Positions 44,620 through 46,131 of a stretch of 48,867 nucleotides of DNA are shown here, piece by piece. The DNA comes from Candidatus Rokuibacteriota bacterium (lineage in GTDB: Bacteria; Methylomirabilota; Methylomirabilia; Rokubacteriales; CSP1-6). The stretch covers positions 1-48,867 of the forward strand of contig QHSP01000056.1 of the NCBI GenBank assembly GCA_003220495.1, read 5' to 3'. Position 1 is the stretch's first letter; each line of letters opens with the position of its first letter. The notes beneath the pieces were generated by a model. The model did no database searches and was not told the DNA's origin. It saw only the letters and a program-made list of their open reading frames with translations. The translations under genes were made by a program, and so were the position numbers.

Positions 44620-46131
44620 TTACCAATCCAGCAGAAGCTGCTCGGGACGCTCGAGTCGGCGTACGATCGCGGCGGCGAAGCGGGCACCGTCGGCGCCGTC
44701 GGCGATGCGATGGTCGAACGTGAGCGAGATCGGCAGGAGCATGCGGGGCACGATCTTCCCCTCGTGCACGACCGGCTCTTCTCGCCCGCGGGCGACGCCG
44801 AGAATGGCCACCTCGGGATAATTGATGATCGGGATCGCTCCAGTGCCGCCGAGCGCGCCGATGTTCGTGATCGTGAACGTTCCCCCGCGCAGGTCCTCGA
44901 GCGTGGCCTTGCCCTCGCGCACTCGCTGCGCGAGAGCCGCCAGCTCGCGCTGAACCTCGACGAGCGGCTTCTGGTCCACGTCGCGGATGACCGGCACGAT
45001 CAAGCCGCGCTCCGTCGCCACTGCCACGCCCAGATGGTGGTAGCGCTTGACGATCAGCTCGCCCGCCGCTGGGTCGAGGCTCGCGTTGAACTGCGGGTGC
45101 TCTTGCAGCGCGAGCGCGGCGGCTTTCAGCAAAAAGCTCGTCAGGGTGAGGGTGAGGCCTCGCTCGCGCGCGGGCTCGACGTTGCGTCTGATGATCGCGT
45201 CGAGCTCGGTGATGTCGGCACGGTCGAAGTGCGTCACGTGGGGGATGAGCGTCGCCGAGAGCGTCATGCGCTCGGCGATCGTGCGACGCAGGTGCGACAG
45301 CGGCTGCCGCTCCACCGGCCCCCACTGCTCGAATCGCGGCAGCGCCGGCGGCTCCATGCCGACCGCCGCGAGCGGCCGCGCCACCGCCGCCCGCTCGGAA
45401 CCCCGCCCATCCACCACCGCCGCCGCACCCGACCGGCCCGCCCCACCGCGGGCCGCCTTCACATCGTCATCGGTCACGCGCCCGCCGGGACCCGTCCCGC
45501 GCACCGCGCGCAGATCCACCCCAAGCTCCCGCGCCAACCGCCGCGTAGCCGGCGTCGCGGGCACCGGTCCCGTCCCAACAGCCGGCGGCTGCGGCGTCAT
45601 TACCGCCGCCGGCCCGCCCGCGGCCAACTCCGCATCCGGTCCTACGCCCGCCCCAGCCGCCGAGGCCGAACCCGACGCTGCTACGGAGCGAGTCGTTGCG
45701 GTCGCCTGTGCTGGTCCGCCAGCACGACCGGGAGGTGCAGCCGTAGAAGCAGGCGAGAGCCCGCGCGTTCCCGCGGACGTGACGGGTTCCCGCCGGGGGG
45801 TGGGGGTGGGGTGGCGGGGAGGCGCGCCGGCGAGTGGGGTTCCGAAGCCGGCGGGCCTCCCCGCCACCCCACCCCCACCCCCCGGCGCCCCGACAGCGTC
45901 CTCGAACGTGACGAGCACATCCCCAACCTTGACGCTCTGCCCAGGCTGGACGTGAATGCGCGCCACACGCCCGGCGAACGGTGAAGGAATCTCGACGGTC
46001 GCCTTATCGGTCTCGACCTCGAGCAACGGCGCGTCCTCGACGAGCACGTCGCCCTCGTTGACGAGCACCTTGACGATCTCGGCCTCGGTGAGCCCCTCGC
46101 CCAGGTCGGGGAGCGCGAACGGTCGGGGCAT
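44620..46131 (-). CDS. 2-oxoacid dehydrogenase dihydrolipoyl acyltransferase (E2)
   Basis: A 503-residue E2. Lipoyl domain (1-78) with the modified Lys43 in ETDKATVE; a long Gly/Pro/Ala linker (about 80-190); peripheral-subunit-binding domain (about 193-232, ATRRLARELGVDLRAVRGTG); catalytic core (about 275-503) with the DHRIADGADG motif, His474 and Asp478. It moves the acyl group from E1 to CoA through the swinging lipoyl arm. Linker residues about 81-115 are encoded by a 97-base palindromic element, in frame. The gene lies 50 bases downstream of E1beta. Pyruvate and branched-chain oxoacid substrates cannot be told apart with confidence, so no symbol is given. Confidence 0.92.
   Translation of the reverse strand: MPRPFALPDLGEGLTEAEIVKVLVNEGDVLVEDAPLLEVETDKATVEIPSPFAGRVARIHVQPGQSVKVGDVLVTFEDAVGAPGGGGGVAGRPAGFGTPLAGAPPRHPTPTPRREPVTSAGTRGLSPASTAAPPGRAGGPAQATATTRSVAASGSASAAGAGVGPDAELAAGGPAAVMTPQPPAVGTGPVPATPATRRLARELGVDLRAVRGTGPGGRVTDDDVKAARGGAGRSGAAAVVDGRGSERAAVARPLAAVGMEPPALPRFEQWGPVERQPLSHLRRTIAERMTLSATLIPHVTHFDRADITELDAIIRRNVEPARERGLTLTLTSFLLKAAALALQEHPQFNASLDPAAGELIVKRYHHLGVAVATERGLIVPVIRDVDQKPLVEVQRELAALAQRVREGKATLEDLRGGTFTITNIGALGGTGAIPIINYPEVAILGVARGREEPVVHEGKIVPRMLLPISLTFDHRIADGADGARFAAAIVRRLERPEQLLLDW
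45791..45887. repeat. 97-base palindromic element with a 33-bp perfect stem inside the E2 gene
   Basis: Left arm 45791-45823 and right arm 45855-45887 are perfect reverse complements (33 of 33). After one mismatch, an inner 7-bp stem (45825-45831 with 45847-45853) continues the fold around a 15-base loop. The left arm has G-runs of 6, 5, 4 and 4 in the plus strand, enough for a G-quadruplex. In the E2 frame it encodes a Gly-rich stretch, a short bridge and a Pro/Thr-rich stretch without stops. I see no second copy in the window. Confidence 0.9.

Follow-up and report, generated by a model that had tools for sequence, protein, structure and literature searches.

The palindrome in the E2 gene

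The window, by which the whole stretch of 48,867 nt that was analysed is meant, contains a single long palindrome, located within a gene for the E2 component (dihydrolipoamide acyltransferase) of a 2-oxoacid dehydrogenase. The features of the locus are the following.

44620-46131, minus strand: host gene, 2-oxoacid dehydrogenase E2 (dihydrolipoamide acyltransferase), reading frame open through the element
45791-45887, no strand assigned: whole palindromic element, an inverted repeat with a covariance model match at 45798-45881 (E = 3.8e-6)
45791-45831, plus strand: left arm of the inverted repeat, G-rich, with a quadruplex-type motif
45830-45845, plus strand: conserved 16-nt core GCGAGTGGGGTTCCGA, common to the family, its first two bases being the innermost of the left arm
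45832-45846, plus strand: 15-nt loop separating the arms, with an inner 3-bp stem TGG/CCG
45847-45887, plus strand: right arm of the inverted repeat, C-rich

The E2 protein is intact with 503 aa and has a lipoyl domain (residues 5-75), an E3-binding domain (190-225) and a catalytic domain (273-501). Genes for E1 subunits and a dihydrolipoamide-dehydrogenase-like gene are found near E2, so the context is that of an ordinary dehydrogenase gene cluster, and those relatives of the E2 gene that carry a name come from Candidatus Rokubacteria. The palindrome covers E2 residues ~82-114, and the domain matches thereby bear out the position in the linker between the lipoyl and subunit-binding domains that a previous sequence-only reading had proposed. 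An example of the E2 peptide encoded by the element is, by predicted translation, AGFGTPLAGAPPR.

The two 41-nt arms are 98% complementary, with 33 perfect outer pairs, a G·G mismatch (45824/45854) and then 7 inner pairs, which confirms the earlier description of a 33-bp perfect inverted repeat with an inner 7-bp stem. The folding energy is far below expectation (z = -10.4 as DNA and -9.4 as RNA), and equal stability was reached in 0 of 200 shuffles. The quadruplex-type G-run is present on both strands; the motif itself thus stands, and its assignment to the template strand alone does not. Since the element of 97 nt is not a multiple of three, the claim that it was inserted in frame leans on the statistics of the family presented below, which do support it. 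When 422 kb from this and two related genomes were scanned, in stretches partly picked around known copies, all palindromes with arms of at least 16 bp (at most one mismatch) carried the family core, and arms never exceeded 15 bp in shuffled controls.

Extent and hosts of the palindrome family

A genome search with the element sequence, akin to the arm-sequence search that the sequence-only reading had suggested, returned further hairpins with different arms and an identical centre. The centre GCGAGTGGGGTTCCGA is also found in hairpins of a MutS2-like gene (MutS_V and Smr domains), rsmE (Methyltrans_RNA domain) and an indolepyruvate-oxidoreductase-like gene (IOR, named from its sequence and not by domain search). 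The pattern GAGTGGGGTTCCGA has exactly four exact occurrences in the 6-Mb genome, every one at the tip of a long hairpin, and the reversed pattern used as a control had zero exact matches in the same genome. In relatives, the loci with the exact core amounted to about 40 hairpins with locus-dependent arms. A covariance model built on 35 sequences (cut-off E <= 0.001, the E-values being rough) gave about 110 matches, which fell in 21 of 95 genomes from this phylum with a maximum of 24 per genome, and the 21 carriers belong to 8 genera of a single Rokubacteria family. A wider search of 388 genomes with the same model added no match, and none was found beyond this Rokubacteria family.

In the alignment of 103 distinct copies, long arms accompany the core GCGAGTG[TC/GG]GTTCCGA, together with a short GC/GC stem and a small internal loop. 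The arms are about 20-52 bp with a G-rich 5' side, a loose inner consensus and outer parts that are unrelated between loci. Arm positions 5-26 are 90-99% Watson-Crick paired in the 103 copies, most of them with several pair types. Five core matches (L120, L121, L154, L134 and L147) lacked convincing arms and were left out. In viral contigs there were 36 matches to the core pattern with 0 of these in a long hairpin, and plasmid and phage searches gave no family match. The Rfam search returned sub-threshold matches alone, nearly all to microRNA hairpin models, and none above the gathering threshold. No paper on palindromic elements in Rokubacteria was found in the open-access literature, which takes in a minority of the subscription journals, and the family is apparently previously unreported. 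Two palindromes of other kinds were also encountered, one long and with an unrelated centre in the same MutS2 linker of another genome (L174 in G019), and one a 23-bp inverted repeat with a TTC loop and without the family core on a Rokubacteria contig (L038:4509).

The hosts in relatives, as identified by Pfam, include AMP-binding synthetases, a gamma-glutamyltranspeptidase, a B12/radical SAM protein and an MFS transporter, and sequence alone points to RND pumps and ABC-F proteins as well. The copies in AMP-binding synthetases (L137, L150, L351 and L364) occupy the same spot directly before YTSGTT in several genomes. Several copies lie inside one Pfam domain, which is matched on both sides of the element. 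In a coding-phase test, 38 copies were in frame and 9 were not (7 shifted in phase, 2 interrupted by a stop; p = 3e-11 against a null of one third in frame by chance); the test is coarse and made no call for 56 of the 103 copies, known in-frame ones among them. The family core is stop-free in six frames and all six are in use. The copies lie for the most part in frame, in linkers and loops of proteins that are conserved and mutually unrelated, and most likely they are translated as a tolerated extra peptide.

Change of arms, core and presence among relatives

Comparison of the E2 linker across relatives, another proposal of the earlier reading, showed palindromes at the same site in independent assemblies, some copies being decayed. 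The element is half-deleted in G007 and the hairpin has collapsed in G005. At the E2 sites of G001 and G008 the flanks and outer arms are similar and the centre is a different one, CTGAGAACNACGACAG, which G005 and G008 also contain at other loci, in one case with 52-bp arms. These four loci (L159 in G008 E2, L160 in G001 E2, L158 in G005 and L161 in G008) make up a second hairpin family with core CTGAGAACNACGACAG, in which L161 has the 52-bp arms, and L159 and L160 sit in arms resembling those of the E2 copies with the first core. In G004 the E2 match changes frame from one side of the element to the other (L139/L021), which is either an assembly error or a broken gene.

The arms of orthologous copies were compared between this genome (G000) and G003. 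There were 7 compensated changes and 1 one-sided change in the 41 pairs of E2, 9 and 1 in the 38 pairs of MutS2, and 5 and 1 in the 33 pairs of RsmE. The IOR arms differed by 3 compensated and 7 one-sided changes, and since this and similar pairs are mostly one-sided, homogenisation of the arms is not constant. Between the sisters G000 and G006 the RsmE arms showed two compensated transversions, each possibly a single mutational event, and one change at an unpaired position. The earlier reading would have been contradicted by relatives with the same amino acids and unpaired bases, and the opposite was seen, as the arm bases of intact copies differ between sisters and the pairing is kept. That the arms are locus-specific and yet change in step suggests that DNA copying, and not RNA function, maintains the perfect pairing.

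Divergence was 1.0% in the core (14 positions), 16.8% in the arms and 15.7% in the flanks, and the two middle core bases show 30% differences, in which TC and GG often replace each other as a block. The conservation of the core is partly a matter of ascertainment because many copies were located via the core; several orthologues, e.g. RsmE of G006, G003 and G007, were retrieved by protein and not by core. The TC/GG block has switched between orthologues in RsmE (L116 versus L231 and L235) and in the radical SAM gene (L143 versus L285 and L305), and this looks like conversion from other copies. Inversion of the core, i.e. of the spacer, was not seen among the orthologue sets compared.

Presence also varies between genomes. 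The spacing between two conserved RsmE motifs is 33-35 residues in 12 genomes without the element and 48-51 residues in most carriers, a net gain of 14-17. As this is about half a palindrome, either the host gave up some sequence or it supplied one of the arms. The MFS copy occurs in G004 alone among the sisters compared, and no target-site duplication was evident at its junction, the single one examined. In MutS2, one arm is eroded in G001, and in G006 the core is deleted and the arms are intact. No mobilising enzyme was identified and copies were not caught moving; we infer the mobility of the element from the dispersion of its copies.

Comparison with known systems and interpretation

Palindromic repeats that code for protein have so far been described chiefly in Rickettsia. 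The sequence-only reading had suggested an element of this Rickettsia palindromic element (RPE) type (Ogata et al. 2000 and 2002, described in PMC10969869). Like RPEs, the Rokubacteria elements are short palindromic repeats lying in frame in unrelated conserved genes, absent from some sisters, with a predicted added peptide and without a known dedicated transposase. They differ from RPEs in the host phylum, which is GC-rich, in the conserved 16-nt core and in the locus-specific outer arms. The Rokubacteria arms also stay matched as they diverge, unlike RPEs, which according to PMC6649704 lose repeat identity over time. For R. conorii a CGTC tag has been reported at one RPE end (PMC3733652). 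This tag was not enriched here, with 22 occurrences near 204 element ends and 28 in the control, and its complement GACG was found 34 times near the same 204 ends versus 15 in the control. The suggestion holds for the kind of element, and the family is assigned to that kind rather than to RPE proper. With 103 distinct aligned copies dispersed over the genomes, and with copies in frame within conserved genes prevailing in the coding-phase test, the best reading is that the family consists of putative protein-coding palindromic elements that resemble RPEs.

Near-perfect inverted repeats in coding genes, gained and lost between species, are likewise described for Nematomorpha mitochondria in PMC6649704, where arm identity is apparently kept by conversion or template switching. 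The arms in Nematomorpha, unlike those here, code for regions of protein that are conserved, and the text consulted mentions no core common to them; in Rokubacteria a common core defines a dispersed family found mostly in linkers and loops. Template switching makes or repairs perfect arms in one event and leaves multi-base compensated changes (PMC8794818, PMC8604942), and compensated arm changes are seen here too, with no wobble preference on the mRNA strand. Hairpins of that origin differ from the present family in that they reflect a mutation mechanism and not a repeat family, and inversion of the spacer would also be expected, which was not seen among the orthologous Rokubacteria copies compared.

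The E2 palindrome is real and part of something larger than first described, a family whose core is fixed and whose arms, specific to each locus, change in concert. We favour, with a probability of about 0.72, the reading that it is one copy of a dispersed Rokubacteria family of selfish, coding elements with a fixed core and with arms homogenised at the DNA level. Such a selfish DNA element would have spread to many sites by copying or transposition. Each arm would then template the other, by template switching during replication or by hairpin repair, and a mutation in one arm would be either copied into the other or erased, keeping the arms identical at the DNA level. DNA copying between arms is the simplest account of the restored arm identity. 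The fixed core is not accounted for by template switching on its own, and a separate constraint may act on it, e.g. recognition by some factor or conversion between copies. A function for the host need not be invoked.

A possible but unlikely alternative is that essentially only the 16-nt core and its short stem are mobile, the long outer arms being made at every new site from adjoining host DNA by template switching and held identical afterwards. If this were true, the exchange of cores within inherited arms, as in the second core of the G001 and G008 E2 genes and in the TC/GG blocks, would be its signature, as would the RsmE gain of about half a palindrome.

Less probable still is selection on RNA structure, by which an mRNA hairpin or quadruplex would serve to slow transcription or translation from one domain to the next; a slowing structure had also been put forward by the sequence-only reading. 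The RNA fold is indeed very stable, changes of pairs are compensated, and a quadruplex-type motif lies in the 5' arm on the core strand in 33 of 102 copies and on the other strand in 26, with 0 in control flanks. Wobble pairs are however not preferred on the mRNA strand, the mismatches of in-frame hosts being 27 G·U versus 36 A·C, and relative to the mRNA the core points the same way in 16 copies and the opposite way in 22. The hosts are moreover unrelated, some copies lie within one domain and not between domains, and some sisters are without the element. On these grounds the slowing structure is not upheld.

The dispersed hairpins with a conserved apex, some of them within genes, also recall REPs, which are 20-40 bp with a GTAG or CGTC tag at the end and RAYT transposases (PMC3733652), and a REP-like element mobilised on single-stranded hairpins by a Y1 (RAYT/IS200-type) transposase was considered. 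G·T outnumbers A·C on the core strand of the 103 copies (97 versus 54, p = 6e-4), which could point to a single-stranded form; the mRNA strand of the hosts shows no such excess. The Rokubacteria family has, in contrast to REPs, neither the GTAG tag, found 3 times near 204 element ends and 2 times in the control and thus not enriched, nor a RAYT-type gene. The Y1 transposase domain PF01797 is absent from this genome, its sisters, the copy-rich G018, G061, G069 and G048, and all other carriers except G054 (fragments) and G016. Such mobilisation is therefore very improbable, and membership of the REP/RAYT group is contradicted by the missing tag and the lack of Y1 transposases in most carriers.

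It is hardly credible that ribosomes bypass the hairpins and leave them untranslated, as in yeast mitochondrial genes. Hairpins inside coding genes are a known substrate for this, as mentioned in PMC6649704, but bypassed DNA would be free to lose frame and gain stops, and the dominance of in-frame, stop-free copies favours translation. A chimeric hairpin from assembly or library preparation, a concern raised earlier to which the metagenome-derived contig and the difficulty of long palindromes for short reads lend weight, is rejected with near certainty by the palindromes at the same site in independent assemblies, their diverged yet complementary arms, the open frame and the core common to many loci.

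The Rokubacteria elements represent a separate and apparently unrelated family of coding palindromes, located inside conserved enzymes of a GC-rich uncultured phylum. With many copies at fixed inherited sites and with arms that are matched but changing, they offer a natural experiment for template-switch homogenisation in bacteria. The family also poses a testable question, namely what causes the fixity of a 16-nt core amid changing surroundings.
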